Part shown: in pieces, positions 39,413-54,587 of the stretch
Layout of the letters: each line of letters opens with the position of its first letter
Numbering within the stretch: the first letter of the stretch is position 1
NCBI RefSeq assembly: GCF_003319115.1
Contig: NZ_QOHF01000017.1
Location: forward strand, 1 to 64,000
Direction of reading: 5' to 3'
From: Geodermatophilus sp. TF02-6
GTDB lineage: Bacteria > Actinomycetota > Actinomycetes > Mycobacteriales > Geodermatophilaceae
Length of the DNA: 64,000 bases
Program-made: the position numbers and the translations under genes
Notes under the pieces: model-generated
Database searches by the model: none
Seen by the model: only the letters and a program-made list of their open reading frames with translations
What the model was told of the DNA's origin: nothing

Positions 39413-40183
39413 GTGCCGCCGTCTGCTCCCGCCTCGTCCGCCGCGGACCAGCTGCCCGCCCGTGCGGCCGCCGTCTGGGCCGCCCTCGATCCGGTCGTCG
39501 CGGCGGGTCCGGCGCTCCGCGTGCTCGACGTCGGCGGCGGGAGCGGCAACTTCGCCGTCCCCCTGGCCCGCCTCGGTCACGAGGTCACCGTCGTCGACCC
39601 CAGCGCCGACGCCCTCGCCACGCTGGACCGGCGCGCGCAGACCGCCGGGGTCGGGGAGCGGGTCCACGGCGTGCAGGGCGACGGCGACCTCCTGCACGAG
39701 GTCGTTCCGGCCGGCGAGGACGACGAGGGCAGCTACGACCTGGCCCTGTGCCACTCGGTGCTCGAGGTCGTCGACGACCCCGCCACCACGCTGCGCGAGA
39801 TCGCCCGCGCCCTGCGCCCGGGAGGCACCGCCAGCGTGGCGACCGCCAACCGGGCCGGCGCGGTGCTGGCCCGCGCCGTCGCCGGGCACCCCGTCGAGGC
39901 CCTCGCCCTGCTCGAGGACCGCGACCCCGCACCGGTCCGCGCCCGCCCCGCCCGCCGCCGCTTCGCCCCCGACGACCTGCTCGCCCTCGTCGCCGGCGCC
40001 GGGCTGCAGCCGGGTAGCTGGCGCGGGGTCTCCGTCGTCGCCGACCTGCTCGACATGGCAGCCGGTGACACGGCCTCCGGCGCCGACCCCGCCGCGGTCC
40101 GCCGGCTCGAGCTGGCGCTGGCCGGCAGCTCGCCCTACCGCGACGTCGCCGCCGGGCTGCACGTCCTGGCCACCCGTCCGTGA
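39413..40183 (+). CDS. SAM-dependent class I methyltransferase
   Basis: A 256-residue Rossmann-fold enzyme. Motif I is VLDVGGGSGNFAVPLA (residues 40-55), motif II is EVTVVDPS, motif III YDLALCHSVLEVVDDPA and motif IV LRPGGTASVATAN. The substrate is unknown. It is coupled (GTGA) to the alkaline-phosphatase-superfamily gene downstream, a pairing conserved in actinobacteria as far as I recall. GTG start. Confidence 0.82.
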   Translation: MPPSAPASSAADQLPARAAAVWAALDPVVAAGPALRVLDVGGGSGNFAVPLARLGHEVTVVDPSADALATLDRRAQTAGVGERVHGVQGDGDLLHEVVPAGEDDEGSYDLALCHSVLEVVDDPATTLREIARALRPGGTASVATANRAGAVLARAVAGHPVEALALLEDRDPAPVRARPARRRFAPDDLLALVAGAGLQPGSWRGVSVVADLLDMAAGDTASGADPAAVRRLELALAGSSPYRDVAAGLHVLATRP

Positions 40184-41349
40184 TGCTCCCGGCCGACCTG
40201 CACCGGCCCGACTACGGGGCGGCCACCCTCGCCGACGTGCTCCCGGGCGCCGCCGCCGCACTCGGCGTCCCGGTCGAGCGCGGGGACCTGCCGACCGACC
40301 CGCTCGGCCTCACCACCGCGCTGGCCGGCGCGCGTCGCGTCGCCGTCCTCCTGGCCGACGGCCTCGGCGCCGACCTGCTCCGCGCGCACGCCGACTCGGC
40401 GCCCACCCTCGCCGCGCTCGCCGCCCCCGCCGGCGACCTGTCGGCGCCCTGCCCGAGCACCACCCCGGTCAGCCTGGCCACCCTGGGCACCGGGCTGCCG
40501 CCGGGCAGCCACGGCGTCCTGGGCTTCGTCACCGCGATACCGGGGGAGGGGCGGACGCTCAACCACGTCCAGTGGACCGACGACCCCGACCCGCTGGTCT
40601 GGCAGGCGCGGCCCAGCGTCTTCGCGCAGGTGGCCGCCGCGGGGGTCGACGTCACCACCGTCGCCCCGTACGCCTATGCCGGCTCCGGGCTCACCCGCGC
40701 GGTCTACCGCGGCGCGCGCTACGCCGGCACCGTGGGCCCCGGCGACCTGGCCGCCGTCCTCCTGCGGTCGCTGGCCGCCGCCCCGCGCGCCCTGGTCTAC
40801 GGCTACACCGCCGAGCTCGACCTCACCGGCCACGTCCGCGGCGTCGACTCGCCCAGCTGGCGCGCGCAGCTGGCGCACGTCGACCGGCTGGTCGAGCAGG
40901 TCCTCACCGGCCTCCCCGCGGACGCCGCGCTGCTGGTCACCGCCGACCACGGGATGCTCGACGTCCCCGCCGCCACCCGGGTCGACCTCGACACCTCCCC
41001 CGAGCTCACCGAGGGCGTGCGCCTGCTGGCCGGCGAGCCGCGGGCCCGCTACGTGCACGCCGTCGCCGGCGCGGAGGCCGACCTGCTGGCTCGCTGGCGC
41101 GCGGTGCTCGGCGAGCGGGCGTGGGTCGCCGGCCGCGACGAGGCGATCGCCAGCGGCGTCTTCGGTCCGGTGGACGACGGCCTGGCCGCCCGCATCGGCG
41201 ACGTCGTCGCCCTCGCCCGCGGCACCTGGGCGCTGACCGCCACGGAGCAGGAGCCGGGTCCGAGCCGGCTGGTCGGCTACCACGGCTCCCTCACCGAGAC
41301 CGAGCTGGCTATCCCGTTGCTCGCTGCCCGCGGGCCGGCGCTCGGCTAG
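40180..41349 (+). CDS. Alkaline-phosphatase-superfamily phosphodiesterase (nucleotide pyrophosphatase type)
   Basis: A 389-residue enzyme. LLADGLGADLL gives the first metal Asp. APCPSTTPVSLATLGTG holds the nucleophile Thr in a typical TxxS/T context. YTAELDLTGHVRG supplies Asp and His, and VTADHGMLDV the second metal Asp-His. GYHGSLTETELAIPLL contains the last His. This is a complete nucleotide pyrophosphatase/phosphodiesterase site. No signal peptide is seen, so it is cytosolic. The start is GTG at 40180 (overlap) or ATG at 40183. The stop overlaps the convergent sucrase/ferredoxin gene by four bases. Confidence 0.85.
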   Translation: MMLPADLHRPDYGAATLADVLPGAAAALGVPVERGDLPTDPLGLTTALAGARRVAVLLADGLGADLLRAHADSAPTLAALAAPAGDLSAPCPSTTPVSLATLGTGLPPGSHGVLGFVTAIPGEGRTLNHVQWTDDPDPLVWQARPSVFAQVAAAGVDVTTVAPYAYAGSGLTRAVYRGARYAGTVGPGDLAAVLLRSLAAAPRALVYGYTAELDLTGHVRGVDSPSWRAQLAHVDRLVEQVLTGLPADAALLVTADHGMLDVPAATRVDLDTSPELTEGVRLLAGEPRARYVHAVAGAEADLLARWRAVLGERAWVAGRDEAIASGVFGPVDDGLAARIGDVVALARGTWALTATEQEPGPSRLVGYHGSLTETELAIPLLAARGPALG

Positions 41350-42467
41350 ACCACCGACAGCAGCCGCACGTGCCAGGTGCGGCTGTGCGCCTCGTGCCGG
41401 GCCCGACAGGTCAGCCGGGTGGCCTCCGGCGCGGGCCGGCTCTCCACCTCGGCCACCACGTCGCCGTCCGGACCGGCGAGGGTGACCACCCACCGCTCGA
41501 CCTCCGCGCCGGCCGGGGTCAGCCGGCGCACCGCCCGCGGCGGCAGGTCGTCGACGCCGAGCAGCGCCAGCTCCTCCCGGGCGGTGTGCTGGGCCGCCTG
41601 CGCCGCCGGGGCGAGACCGGCCCGACCGCGCAGCCAGGGCAGCGCCACCCGGCCTCCGGCGTGGGCGGCGACCAGGTCGGCGCCGTCGCCGGGGACCTGC
41701 CCGTAGTAGAAGCCGTGCGGGAGCACCAGCACGTTGCTGGCGAACCGGCACCCACCCAGGTGGCTGCACTCCCACACGTCGGCGCCGGGCATCACCCGGG
41801 CCAGCGGCCGCCCGCGCAGCGCGCAGCAGGCGTCGTGTCCGCCGTGTGCGCACACCAGGTAGGTGGGGCCGCCGGTCGGTTCGCCGACCGAGCCGTCCCA
41901 CGGCGCGTCGACGAGCTCGGCGTCGGTACCGCGCACCGACCACCACAGACCCTCGTGGCCGGGCCGGCCGTCGACGTAGGCCCAGCGCCGCCGCGAGTCG
42001 ACCAGCCGGTCGCCGGGCCGGCGCACCAGCAGCACCCGGACGTTCTCCGCCCGCGCCCGCTGCGCCACCAGCTCGGCCACTGCCGGGTCGAACCGGGACT
42101 GCCGCAGCGCGTCGACGCCCCACGGCCCCGGCTGCTCGACGAGCAGCCAGCGCTGCGCCGGCGAGGCCGTCGCCACCCCGGAGTCGCCGCGGGCCAGGGC
42201 CAGCACCGAGCAGCGGTCGTCGGCGAGCCGACCGATCGGCCGTCCGGGTGCCTGCTCGGAGCGGCAGAAGTCGGGTCCGCCCGCTGCGTCCCGCTCCCGC
42301 CGTCCCCCGCGCGCGGGAGGCGCCCCCGGCTCGTCCGCGACCGGAACCGGCTCGTCCGGGACCGGAACCGGCCCTGCGGTGTCCACGGGTGACCCCGCGA
42401 GCTCGGTCACGTCGGGCGGTCCGCCCGGCTCACGACCCGGTCCGGGGAGCGCGGTCACGCCCTCCAT
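41346..42467 (-). CDS. Sucrase/ferredoxin-like (thioredoxin-fold 2Fe-2S) protein
   Basis: About 373 residues. A low-complexity Pro/Val-rich N-terminus (with the DNA repeat GACCGGAACCGGC) precedes the conserved core RWLLVEQPGPWG. The iron-sulfur part is YLVCAHGGHDACCALRGRPL and WECSHLGGCRFASNVL, with four Cys plausibly binding a 2Fe-2S cluster as in Apd1/sucrase-ferredoxin proteins. It would carry electrons. Its start lies inside the cupin gene end (overlap of 38 bases if ATG at 42467; GTG at 42410 is an alternative). Linked to a repeat peptide and a cupin oxygenase. Confidence 0.82.
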   Translation of the reverse strand: MEGVTALPGPGREPGGPPDVTELAGSPVDTAGPVPVPDEPVPVADEPGAPPARGGRRERDAAGGPDFCRSEQAPGRPIGRLADDRCSVLALARGDSGVATASPAQRWLLVEQPGPWGVDALRQSRFDPAVAELVAQRARAENVRVLLVRRPGDRLVDSRRRWAYVDGRPGHEGLWWSVRGTDAELVDAPWDGSVGEPTGGPTYLVCAHGGHDACCALRGRPLARVMPGADVWECSHLGGCRFASNVLVLPHGFYYGQVPGDGADLVAAHAGGRVALPWLRGRAGLAPAAQAAQHTAREELALLGVDDLPPRAVRRLTPAGAEVERWVVTLAGPDGDVVAEVESRPAPEATRLTCRARHEAHSRTWHVRLLSVV

Positions 42468-43755
42468 CGTGCCCCTCGACCCGGTCGGGGGCGGCGGCGT
42501 CGGGGACCACCGCGACCGCCTCGGTGACCAGCCGCCGGGCGAGGGTGAGCTGGTCGGCCGGGTCCAGGCCCGGCAGGTCGGCCACCTTGAGCTCGCCGGC
42601 GGCCACCAGCGCGGCCAGCGCGGGCCGGGTCTCGGCCGACAGCTCCAGCGACCGTCGACCGGCGACCAGCGTGACCCGGCCGTCGGCGGGCTCGCGCAGC
42701 ACGCACCGCAACCGGGGGCGCAGCCGCAGCACGGTGTCGGGGGACAGGGACGCCGCGGCGGTGGCCTGGGCCAGCGGCGCCACCGGCTGGGGCCGCACCT
42801 GGGCCCACGTCCGCGACCGCAGCCGGTCGGCGACCTCGGCCGGGTCGACCCGGTCCAGCCAGCCCTTGAGCGCGGCGACGACCGTCGCGACGTCGTCGGC
42901 GACCGTGCCCGGGTCGGCGAGGTCCAGGCCCAGCGGGAGCGAGCGGCGCAGCTCCGGGTCCTCGGCGGCGAGCACCCGCAGCAGGTCGAGCGCGGACTCC
43001 GCGGCCGCCCAGCGGGTCACCGGGTGCACGCCGACGGTCAGGTGCGCGCTGATCTCGCCCAGGGCGACGGCCGAGTGCAGGTGACCGCGGGGCAGGTAGA
43101 GGGCGTCGCCGGGCCTCAGCACCGCGTCGATCAGCGGCTCCCGCTCGGCCGCGGCCGCGACGGCGGCGGCGTGGTCGTTCCAGGGCTGGGTGCGCAGCGG
43201 GTCGGGCAGCACCGGCTCGTGGATCCGCCAGTGCTTCTCCCCGGCCACCTGCAGCACGAAGACGTCGTGCACGTCGTAGTGCGGGGAGAACCCGCGCGAG
43301 GACGGCGGGGTGACGTAGGCGTTGACCTGCGTGGGGTGGCCCAGGTCGGCGGCGAGTTGGTCGGCGAACTCGATCAGCGGCGGCCAGAGCCGGTGCAGGC
43401 CCTGCAGGACGACGGTGCTGCCGTCGGCGAACAGCCGCAGCACCGCGTCGGAGGACACCTGGTCGGCGATCTCGGCGCCGGCGCCTCCGGAGGTGGTGAA
43501 GCGCTTCGGATCGACGACCGCGCCGTCCTTGGCGATCCGCAGGAAGGGCGTGCGCAGACCACGGCGGGACAGCAGCTCGTCGACCGCGGTCAGGTCGAGC
43601 AGGTCGGCGAAGGACGCCCCGCTCTCCTCGGCCCGGGTCAGCAGCGGCCGGCGGGACCAGTACCGCTCGGCGAAGACCTGCGGGTCCAGGACGGTGCACC
43701 GGCGCAGGGCCGGCCGGGAGCCCGGCCGGCCCTGCGCGGTGGGGTTCTCGGTCAG
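42430..43755 (-). CDS. JmjC/cupin_4-type oxygenase (ROXA/YcfD-like), CTG start
   Basis: About 441 residues. The core has FSPHYDVHDVFVLQVAGEKHW with the iron-binding HxD (His159, Asp161) and GDALYLPRGHLHSA with the distal His (225 or 227). These are the facial triad of Fe(II)/2-oxoglutarate ribosomal-oxygenase-like hydroxylases acting on His or Arg side chains. A helical and winged-helix-like C-terminus follows. Conserved N-terminal sequence (QVFAERYWSRRPLL) extends 80 residues before the first GTG (43458), and no ATG, GTG or TTG occurs in frame there. CTG at 43753-43755 overlaps the upstream TGA (CTGA). It is the likely start. Confidence 0.82.
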   Translation of the reverse strand: MTENPTAQGRPGSRPALRRCTVLDPQVFAERYWSRRPLLTRAEESGASFADLLDLTAVDELLSRRGLRTPFLRIAKDGAVVDPKRFTTSGGAGAEIADQVSSDAVLRLFADGSTVVLQGLHRLWPPLIEFADQLAADLGHPTQVNAYVTPPSSRGFSPHYDVHDVFVLQVAGEKHWRIHEPVLPDPLRTQPWNDHAAAVAAAAEREPLIDAVLRPGDALYLPRGHLHSAVALGEISAHLTVGVHPVTRWAAAESALDLLRVLAAEDPELRRSLPLGLDLADPGTVADDVATVVAALKGWLDRVDPAEVADRLRSRTWAQVRPQPVAPLAQATAAASLSPDTVLRLRPRLRCVLREPADGRVTLVAGRRSLELSAETRPALAALVAAGELKVADLPGLDPADQLTLARRLVTEAVAVVPDAAAPDRVEGHDGGRDRAPRTGS

Positions 43756-44036
43756 GCGCCACCGTCCGCGCCGCCGTCGGCACCGCCGTCGCGGACGCCG
43801 GGCGTGCCCTGGCCGGCGCCGCTGTCCGCGGGGCCCTCGGCGCCGCTGTCGGCTCCGCCGTCGGCGCCGCCGTCGTGCACGCCCGGGGTGCCCTGGCCGG
43901 CGCCGCTGTCCGCGGGGCCCTCGGCGCCGCTGTCGGCACCGCCGTCGGCGCCGCCGTCGTGCACGCCCGGGGTGCCCTGGCCGGCGCCGCTGTCCGCGGG
44001 GCCCTCGGTGCTGGTCATGTCGTCGTCGAGCGCCAT
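43752..44036 (-). CDS. Small Asp/Gly-rich protein with three 28-residue repeats, possible modified-peptide precursor
   Basis: A 94-residue acidic protein. A ten-residue start MALDDDMTST is followed by three near-perfect 28-residue repeats (residues 11-38, 39-66, 67-94). Each runs EGPADSGAGQGTPGV, then HDGGADGGADSGA. The third has Arg for His and Gly for Ser. At DNA level they are 84-bp direct repeats. A strong ribosome site (GGAGGAGCC) precedes the ATG. The stop overlaps the CTG of the cupin oxygenase. The repeat plan, the His and Asp residues and the linked oxygenase and ferredoxin suggest a multi-core precursor or an oxygenase substrate. This is inference; I know no characterised family. 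Confidence 0.65.
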   Translation of the reverse strand: MALDDDMTSTEGPADSGAGQGTPGVHDGGADGGADSGAEGPADSGAGQGTPGVHDGGADGGADSGAEGPADSGAGQGTPGVRDGGADGGADGGA

Positions 44037-47395: not shown

Positions 47396-48613
47396 ATGCC
47401 GTCGTCGGGCCGTGCCGTGCCGTCGCGGGCTCCGGGGTGCAGCGTCCTGCACGTCGACATGGACGCGTTCTTCGCCAGCGTCGAGGTGCGCCGCCGTCCC
47501 GAGCTGGCCGGCACGCCGGTGATCGTCGGCGGGGCCGGCAGCCGCGGGGTGGTCACCTCGGCCACCTACGAGGCGCGCCGGTACGGCGTGCACTCGGCCA
47601 TGCCGACCGCCCGCGCGCTGCGGCTGTGCCCCACGGCGACGGTGCTGCCGGGGGACACGGCCCTCTACACCGAGGTGTCCCGGGCGGTCATGGCGCTGTT
47701 CCGCTCGATCACCCCGCTGGTGGAGCCGTTGAGCCTGGACGAGGCGTTCCTCGACGTCTCCGGGGCCGGCCGCCGGCTCGGCGACGCCGCCGAGGTCGGC
47801 GAGTACCTGCGCGCCCGCGTCTACGACGAGCAGGGCATCACCTGCTCGGTGGGCGTGGCCGCCACCTTGTTCGTGGCCAAGCTGGCCTCCACCCGCGCCA
47901 AGCCCGACGGGCTGCTCGTCGTCCGGCCGGCCGAGGTCATCGGGTTCCTGCACCCGCTGCCGGTGGGCGCGCTGTGGGGGGTGGGCGCCCGGACCGAGGA
48001 GGTGCTGCTGCGGCTGGGGCTGCGCACCGTGGGCGACCTCGCCCACGTACCGGTCCGCACGCTGCAGCGGGCGCTGGGCCCCGCGGCGGGCGCCCACCTG
48101 CACGAGCTGTCGTGGGGCCGCGACCCGCGCCGGGTGGTGCCCGACGAGCCGGAGCGGTCGGCCGGGCACGAGGAGACCTTCGCCAGGGACGTCGACGACC
48201 CGGCCGTCGTCCACCGGGAGCTGCTGCGGCTGGCGGAGCGGACGGCGGCCCGGCTGCGCGCCGGTGGCTGCCTGGCCCGCACGGTGAGCATCAAGGTGCG
48301 CTTCGCCGACTTCGCCACGATCACCCGGTCGCGCACCCTCGACGTCCCCACCGACGTCGGGCAGGAGCTCTACGAGACCGCCCGCGGGCTGTTCGACGCG
48401 CTGGGCCTGGACCGGGCGCGGATCCGGCTGGTCGGCGTGCGCGCCGAGCGCCTGGTGGCGGCCGGGTCGACGCCCCGGCAGCTGGAGCTGGGCGCCCGCG
48501 AGCGCGGCCGCCGGGAGGCCGAGCTGGCCGCCGACCGGGCCGCTCGCCGGTTCGGCGCCGGCGCGGTGCGCCCGGCGACCCTGCTGCACCGCGACGGGCA
48601 CCCCTCTCCATGA
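47396..48613 (+). CDS. dinB: DNA polymerase IV (Y-family)
   Basis: A 405-residue translesion polymerase. VLHVDMDAFFASVE carries the first catalytic Asp and the steric-gate-region Phe-Phe. ATYEARRYGVHSAMP, LSLDEAFLDVSG with the catalytic Asp-Glu, and CSVGVAATLFVAKLASTRAKPDG with the fingers are intact. The little finger domain ends near LELGARERG. A beta-clamp-binding motif is not obvious at the tail. A LexA box upstream places it in the SOS regulon. ATG with GGGGAGAGGGGAC upstream. Confidence 0.93.
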   Translation: MPSSGRAVPSRAPGCSVLHVDMDAFFASVEVRRRPELAGTPVIVGGAGSRGVVTSATYEARRYGVHSAMPTARALRLCPTATVLPGDTALYTEVSRAVMALFRSITPLVEPLSLDEAFLDVSGAGRRLGDAAEVGEYLRARVYDEQGITCSVGVAATLFVAKLASTRAKPDGLLVVRPAEVIGFLHPLPVGALWGVGARTEEVLLRLGLRTVGDLAHVPVRTLQRALGPAAGAHLHELSWGRDPRRVVPDEPERSAGHEETFARDVDDPAVVHRELLRLAERTAARLRAGGCLARTVSIKVRFADFATITRSRTLDVPTDVGQELYETARGLFDALGLDRARIRLVGVRAERLVAAGSTPRQLELGARERGRREAELAADRAARRFGAGAVRPATLLHRDGHPSP

Positions 48614-48738
48614 CACCGCCCCCGATGACACCGCCCCCGATGACACCGCCCCCGACGACACCGCCCCCGACGACACCGCCCCCGACGACACCACTCCCGA
48701 CGACACCGCTCCCGACGACACCGCCCCGACGACACGCC
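48611..48738. repeat. 15-bp tandem repeat (TGACACCGCCCCCGA), about eight copies
   Basis: Starts at the dinB stop. Units drift from TGACACCGCCCCCGA to CGACACCGCCCCCGA and CGACACCACTCCCGA. In frame it could read Thr-Pro-Pro-Pro, but no start or ribosome site supports a gene. It is probably an expandable satellite. Confidence 0.75.
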
Positions 48739-54513: not shown

Positions 54514-54527
54514 GTGTCCTCCTCCCT

Positions 54528-54587
54528 GGTGTTCTCCCTGGGGTCCTGGTGTTCTCCCTGGGGTCCTGGTGTTCTCCCTGGGGTCCC
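54528..54587 (-). repeat. 20-bp tandem repeat, three copies, in the moxR leader
   Basis: On the plus strand the unit is GGTGTTCTCCCTGGGGTCCT at 54528, 54548 and 54568; the third copy has one change. It lies directly upstream of the moxR ribosome site, in the expected 5' leader on the minus strand. Each unit carries AGGGAG on that strand, which mimics a ribosome site. Confidence 0.75.

Follow-up and report, generated by a model that had tools for sequence, protein, structure and literature searches.

Asp/Gly-rich repeat peptide genes paired with JmjC_2 cupin oxygenase genes in actinobacteria: a candidate two-gene peptide-modification unit

A three-gene locus in Geodermatophilus sp. TF02-6

We analysed a stretch of 64,000 nucleotides from Geodermatophilus sp. 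TF02-6 (contig NZ_QOHF01000017.1, positions 1 to 64,000), referred to here as the window. Among named genomes, the closest to it are Geodermatophilus species. On its minus strand, at 41346-44036, three overlapping genes encode a 94-residue repeat peptide, a JmjC_2 cupin and a Suc_Fer-like protein. The original prediction, made from the letters of this stretch, had described three open reading frames (ORFs) here, with 28-residue repeats in the first and a 4-base overlap between the first and the second, and all of these are present.

The peptide gene (43752..44036, minus strand) begins with the leader-like N-terminus MALDDDMTST (44007..44036), 10 residues that carry a DDD[I/M]xT-type motif, and continues with three 28-residue core units of the form EGPADSGAGQGTPGV[H/R]DGGADGGAD[S/G]GA (43755..44006), which bring the total to 94 residues. 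At the DNA level the units form an array with a period of 84, 3.0 copies and 94% matches, and its Tandem Repeats Finder score of 438 is the highest among the arrays listed for the window. The GC content of this ORF at the three codon positions is 0.85/0.69/0.95. The repeat ORF is coding, because the mismatches between repeats fall mostly at codon position 3: across 191 loci this position takes 67% of the repeat-versus-repeat DNA mismatches on average, it holds the majority of them in 172 of the 191 when repeats are matched by DNA similarity alone, and no out-of-frame self-matches of the repeats were found in these loci at the chosen threshold. The window peptide found no match in Pfam or NCBIfam, nor did four others in NCBIfam, and the precursor has no evident signal peptide.

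The second gene (42430..43755, minus strand) encodes a predicted cupin oxygenase that matches PF08007 with an E value of 9.1e-28 and 96.8 bits (curated cut-off, 22). The HxD...H Fe(II) triad that had been noticed in the letters corresponds to H160, D162 and H228, three residues that do not vary across the 32 aligned relatives, all of which match PF08007 at E <= 1. The closest solved structures by sequence are NO66 and MINA, and profile positions 11-398 of 399 align to residues 38-445 of 454 in NO66, C-terminal region included; by these comparisons the cupin is a NO66/MINA/YcfD-type JmjC_2 protein. The third gene (41346..42467, minus strand), whose start overlaps the 3' end of the cupin gene, matches PF06999, Suc_Fer-like (E value, 1.9e-13; 51.3 bits; curated cut-off, 34.9), and encodes what we take to be a 2Fe-2S protein on a thioredoxin-like fold; a sequence search of solved structures with this protein gave no E value better than 0.45.

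The TGA stop codon of the peptide and the inferred start of the cupin share the bases CTGA (43752..43755), an overlap that requires a CTG start. The open cupin frame holds no ATG, GTG or TTG before 43458, a position already inside the domain, and the window cupin thus probably starts at CTG. An in-frame NTGA overlap occurs in 121 of 191 loci (CTG in 92, GTG in 19, TTG in 7 and ATG in 3). No ordinary start precedes the domain in 60 of the 92 CTG loci; in the remaining 32 one is found slightly further on, and there CTG need not be the start. For the window, the simplest reading is a CTG start with stop-start coupling, by which the enzyme would be made where the peptide has just been made. The frequency of the overlap would also be expected if the upstream ORF were mainly a translational leader controlling cupin synthesis through this coupling, its product having no further role. 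We regard this as very unlikely, as the 70 of 191 loci without the overlap nevertheless keep the peptide, changes accumulate at third codon positions with the amino acid sequence kept, and the peptides are long, with a median of 95 residues.

Conservation and spread of the gene pair

Our survey comprised 210 cupin loci: 30 from a search of the host family, Geodermatophilaceae, 100 chosen from matches in the family, order and class, and the best 80 of at least 579 in a named collection. In 11 of them fewer than 250 bases lie upstream of the cupin, leaving 199 readable. Of these 199, 194 passed an automated screen for an acidic, Asp/Gly-rich ORF whose end lies close to the start of the cupin. 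Random positions in the same loci passed it 41 times in 2867 on the same strand and 48 times in 2862 on the opposite one. A stricter first version had passed 180 of 199; it was loosened as clear peptides failed it, and the control was then rerun. Five calls were corrected by hand: L163 and L171 failed the loosened test with a peptide visible by eye, and L052, L055 and L070 passed with ORFs that are not repeat peptides. With duplicates merged, 187 distinct related cupins have upstream DNA that can be read, and in 181 of these, two of them added by eye, a repeat peptide lies just upstream. Outside the class 16 cupins were fetched, and all 15 of those with upstream DNA have an Asp-rich peptide directly upstream.

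The pairing is thus general, beyond what the first sequence showed. The original prediction had proposed looking for a repeat ORF upstream of other actinobacterial cupins, and had held that homologous cupins consistently lacking such a neighbour would speak against its view of the peptide as the substrate of the cupin; the neighbour proved to be conserved. Because nearly every cupin gene surveyed in these actinobacteria has a repeat peptide directly in front, the sequence data suggest that the enzyme is dedicated to modifying the upstream peptide. The proposal that the peptide is the substrate gains support by association, while its choice of His or Arg as the modified residue does not hold, as discussed below. 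A genome-wide search for a DGGADGxA DNA pattern was rejected as a way of finding orphan peptides; the pattern matched in 172 of 296 genomes, many of them without the cupin, and is not discriminating.

The six distinct cupins without the repeat peptide are L052, L055, L067, L068, L069 and L070. Two of them (L067 and L068) are distant, and L069 and L070 are distant forms with another peptide. L052 and L055, from one genus, have a non-repeat acidic ORF upstream; their fetched stretches contain no Suc_Fer gene, one being present elsewhere in the genome, and in our tree their stem is long, at 0.98 changes per column. A stem of this length would be expected had the usual constraint been lifted, perhaps with the substrate itself lost or replaced, and we count it in favour of peptide modification.

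Almost all host-family genomes have the cupin, whose occurrence elsewhere is patchy. At E <= 1e-20 it was found in 107 of 112 host-family genomes, in 178 of 298 genomes sampled from the order (a sample that takes in many host-family genomes) and, distant forms included, in 85 of 296 genomes from the class; at E <= 1e-40 it was found in 26 of 246 genomes from the phylum. In a tree of 50 hand-picked cupins most genera group together, Kribbella falls inside Pseudonocardiaceae, and 10 forks stay open; two metagenome-assembled Geodermatophilaceae lie apart from the rest of the family, and the Geodermatophilus entries do not form one group. Inheritance of the cupin looks largely, and not wholly, vertical.

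Leader, core and candidate target residue

The peptides begin alike across the phylum, for example MALDDDDMTS, MSINDDDITT, VEDEDIVTTW and LTDEEIETVW; DDDITT and DEDIxTV are typical leader stretches. Of 192 distinct peptides, 146 contain a single copy of a motif written as [DE][DEQA][IM]x(1,2)[TS], at a median position of 5; in shuffled sequences the corresponding count is 5.9 on average and 16 at most. The cores, by contrast with the leaders, vary by cupin group: DGGADGGA-type units are found in most of the class, DGTDGDATDGTD-type and DGTD/DATDGD-type units in L062-L066 and outside the class, and a DSDGTDSSSDFI-type peptide before 14 of 24 distant cupins. In the 173 peptides measured, with starts as chosen by the script, length ranges from 51 to 244 residues with 8-37 Asp. 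A short precursor gene beside a modifying enzyme, and a conserved leader followed by a variable core, are both reminiscent of ribosomally synthesized and post-translationally modified peptides (RiPPs). The arrangement resembles a RiPP system built on one oxygenase, yet it is found in nearly every host-family genome and recurs across the phylum.

We propose that the locus is a two-gene peptide-modification unit in which a JmjC_2 oxygenase hydroxylates an Asp/Gly-rich repeat precursor, most likely on Asp, and from the sequence comparisons we give this reading a probability of roughly 0.6. The first gene would encode the precursor, in which a repetitive core rich in Asp and Gly follows a short, acidic leader, and the second a JmjC_2 Fe(II)/2-oxoglutarate oxygenase, apparently produced by stop-start coupling from the peptide gene. 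The cupin would bind the precursor and hydroxylate many residues of the core, most likely converting Asp to beta-hydroxyaspartate, and the Suc_Fer-like protein, usually encoded by the next gene, would probably serve an iron or redox step. An oxidation other than hydroxylation is also possible.

The choice of Asp follows from the composition of the cores. The original prediction had pointed to the His or Arg that precedes DGG in each window repeat, and known ROX enzymes do modify His or Arg, as the molecule names of the solved structures also indicate. Counted over 1209 units of the form DGGADG[GSATQ]A, the residue in front is Ala 701 times, His 247 times, Ser 101, Gln 55, Gly 51, Thr 26 and Arg 17 times, with 11 units left for other residues; the units with His speak for the proposal. 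Both H and R are, however, absent from 27 of the 192 cores, a count made with peptide starts and core boundaries chosen by a script, which left some N-termini wrongly long and so, if anything, added H and R to the cores. This rules out His/Arg as a general target, and we consider it highly improbable that they are the hydroxylated residues of each repeat. D, G and A, on the other hand, occur in all 192 cores, and at least one Asp-Gly pair in 191 of them, L233 being the exception. Because Asp is in every core and Asp beta-hydroxylation occurs in another ribosomal peptide (SmaO, see below), Asp is the most plausible general target of the cupin.

The same composition, with about 40% Gly and 17.5% Asp in the repeat part, would suit a hydrophilin-like disordered stress protein that shares its operon by chance with an oxygenase acting on a different substrate, and the host family includes desert and rock dwellers. 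Against this stands the recurrence of the arrangement in many families and outside the class, and we judge such a chance association to be quite unlikely. A further alternative starts from the enzyme. NO66, MINA and YcfD act on ribosomal proteins at His or Arg; they share with the window cupin the Pfam family PF08007, the HxD...H triad and an alignment that runs through the C-terminal region of NO66, and NO66 and MINA are the closest solved structures. This raises the possibility that the cupin is a ribosomal oxygenase of this type acting on a ribosomal protein, with the upstream peptide as its iron chaperone, inhibitor or assembly partner, and Asp-rich peptides do bind metals. A multi-site substrate, however, fits better with cores whose length and repeat number vary widely behind a leader that is mostly kept. 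In distant groups, enzymes of this family stand beside Asp-containing peptides of a very different kind, and the conserved peptide neighbour itself argues against a ribosomal protein as the substrate. We know of no NO66/MINA/YcfD enzyme encoded behind a dedicated repeat peptide, although no search aimed at the genes around them was made, and we consider the ribosomal-oxygenase explanation unlikely.

Several observations weigh against modification of the peptide by the cupin. The adjacency of the peptide gene would also fit a chaperone, an iron donor or a regulatory peptide, and the loci, being related, do not count as independent samples. Of the 192 peptides, 46 lack the leader motif in the form given above, some by a slight deviation and others with a much shorter leader, and the core of L233 makes clear that Asp-Gly is not a strict rule. 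A profile comparison with PqqD gave no support for an RRE domain in the cupin (hhalign probability 0.6%, compared with 0.3% for the control segment; the 17 PqqD rows include one, L264, whose reading frame is visibly wrong). With regard to a leader-binding domain, the models HTH_15, HTH_IclR and MarR_2 each gave a weak match in two of the 32 aligned cupins. Neither a protease nor a transporter was found among the nine window proteins scanned (six and three), and L067, L068 and eight further distant cupins have either no short peptide of the kind described in the next section, by scan, or a different candidate.

Iron-related neighbours, distant loci and known systems

A Suc_Fer-like ORF is present in 172 of the 210 fetched loci and in 14 of the 16 fetched outside the class, and lies just downstream on the cupin strand in 112 of the 130 loci in which positions were read (L001-L130). 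A PF06999 match is missing from 7 of 14 whole cupin genomes tested, all of which keep the repeat peptide. These seven are six members of family f14, which we take to be Micromonosporaceae from the likeness of its peptides and neighbours to named loci, and G168. Of the remaining seven genomes, six have a PF06999 gene at a distance from the cupin, and in G070 such a gene stands next to a second cupin piece. This rules out Suc_Fer as an obligatory partner, and the Suc_Fer-like gene is a frequent but dispensable one. The idea in the original prediction that the ferredoxin-like protein supplies electrons to the cupin is weakened by the seven genomes and still has the 172 loci in its favour.

A second line of evidence comes from distant cupins. 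Fourteen of the 24 examined (L069, L070 and L211-L222) are preceded by a peptide of 35-52 residues in which a conserved stretch resembling EVEVEDLAEVTSRD leads up to the ending D[S/N/T]DG[T/S]D[S/G]SSDFI; no such short peptide was found by scan before the remaining ten. A prolyl oligopeptidase-like ORF stands beside the short peptide in all three loci for which genes were listed (Pfam was run on one). In 13 of the 14 short-peptide genomes the cupin strand carries a FhuF-type match (PF11575, a model of 21 positions) at a distance of 0.9 to 7.2 kb downstream, and in the remaining genome (G446) the FhuF-type matches are on other contigs. These distant loci look like a separate RiPP-like cluster. 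The distant JmjC_2 cupin of L226, one of the ten, has about 150 bases upstream the peptide METADELVVAVETLASVQDRFDTEHSDSDGSDGLNYPEGQ, which contains SDSDGSDG, another Asp-Gly variant.

FhuF proteins reduce ferric siderophores and contain a 2Fe-2S cluster. A link to iron or redox chemistry is likely, though not an essential one, because a Suc_Fer-like gene occurs in so many loci and an unrelated FhuF-type gene in nearly all short-peptide genomes. Two unrelated 2Fe-2S-type proteins beside two branches of one oxygenase family point to iron or redox handling in a way that is suggestive only, since three tested f14 genomes and G168 show neither the PF06999 nor the FhuF-type family. A more specific and tentative idea, which we think rather unlikely, is that the single JmjC_2 oxygenase makes a poly-beta-hydroxyaspartyl peptide that would bind Fe(III) or another metal, with the Suc_Fer-like or FhuF-type protein reducing the bound iron; the product would then be a ribosomal metallophore or iron store unlike known siderophores.

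Hydroxylation of a ribosomal precursor by an enzyme of its own cluster has precedents. In biphenomycin-type clusters, the JmjC ornithine hydroxylases BpmG and BipG and the related cupin PbsQ hydroxylate a residue of the precursor encoded by their own cluster (PMC12257519, PMC12707348). Those systems differ from the window unit in being multi-enzyme clusters (MNIO, B12 radical SAM, arginase and protease) with Orn as the target, and the excerpts of the two reports mention no Asp/Gly repeats in the precursors. SmaO beta-hydroxylates Asp in its precursor, and in corallotide a 2-oxoglutarate oxygenase hydroxylates a Lys of every one of five repeated motifs (PMC13097080). As described in the excerpts of that paper, the SmaO/SmaX and corallotide pathways differ from the window unit in belonging to graspetide synthetase clusters, and CorC is a PF13640 protein rather than JmjC_2; no adjacent ATP-grasp (graspetide) ligase was found among the nine window proteins scanned. 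In fish and algae, PF08007 domains with a fused RRE-like fold are reported, and their nearest JmjC homologs in bacteria, at about 30% identity, are said to sit in RiPP-like contexts (PMC12710340); the excerpted text names no Asp/Gly repeat precursor for these proteins, and our profile test found no RRE similarity. In the open-licence literature we recognised no account of an Asp-repeat peptide paired with a JmjC_2 cupin, and nothing was found for DGGADGG.

If the proposed modification is correct, a widespread actinobacterial system has been overlooked, its precursor being a low-complexity small ORF that matched no Pfam or NCBIfam model here and its partner tending to be annotated merely as a cupin (as in the plasmid entries), which adds to the oversight. 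Bacterial JmjC_2 enzymes would gain a dedicated peptide substrate, and the pair would constitute a two-gene system for multi-site peptide hydroxylation. The role of many of these JmjC_2 proteins would become directly testable, and the 27 natural cores without His or Arg offer a ready-made test of the target residue.

Among the other features of the window, a PF01663 phosphodiesterase/nucleotide pyrophosphatase gene (40180..41349, plus strand) converges on the unit and lies outside it; this gene adjoins the cupin in many host-family loci and does not do so in the loci of other families. The Pfam scan, which covered part of the window's genes, identified as neighbours this phosphodiesterase, an acyl-CoA dehydrogenase-like protein and a 3-dmu-9_3-mt protein. 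Two further tandem arrays were seen. An array of 15-base units (8.3 copies, 94% matches) lies at 48612-48735, between a DNA polymerase IV-like gene and a DUF3040 gene, and a perfect 20-base repeat with 3.1 copies lies at 54525-54586, inside the N-terminal part of a MoxR-type AAA ATPase ORF.

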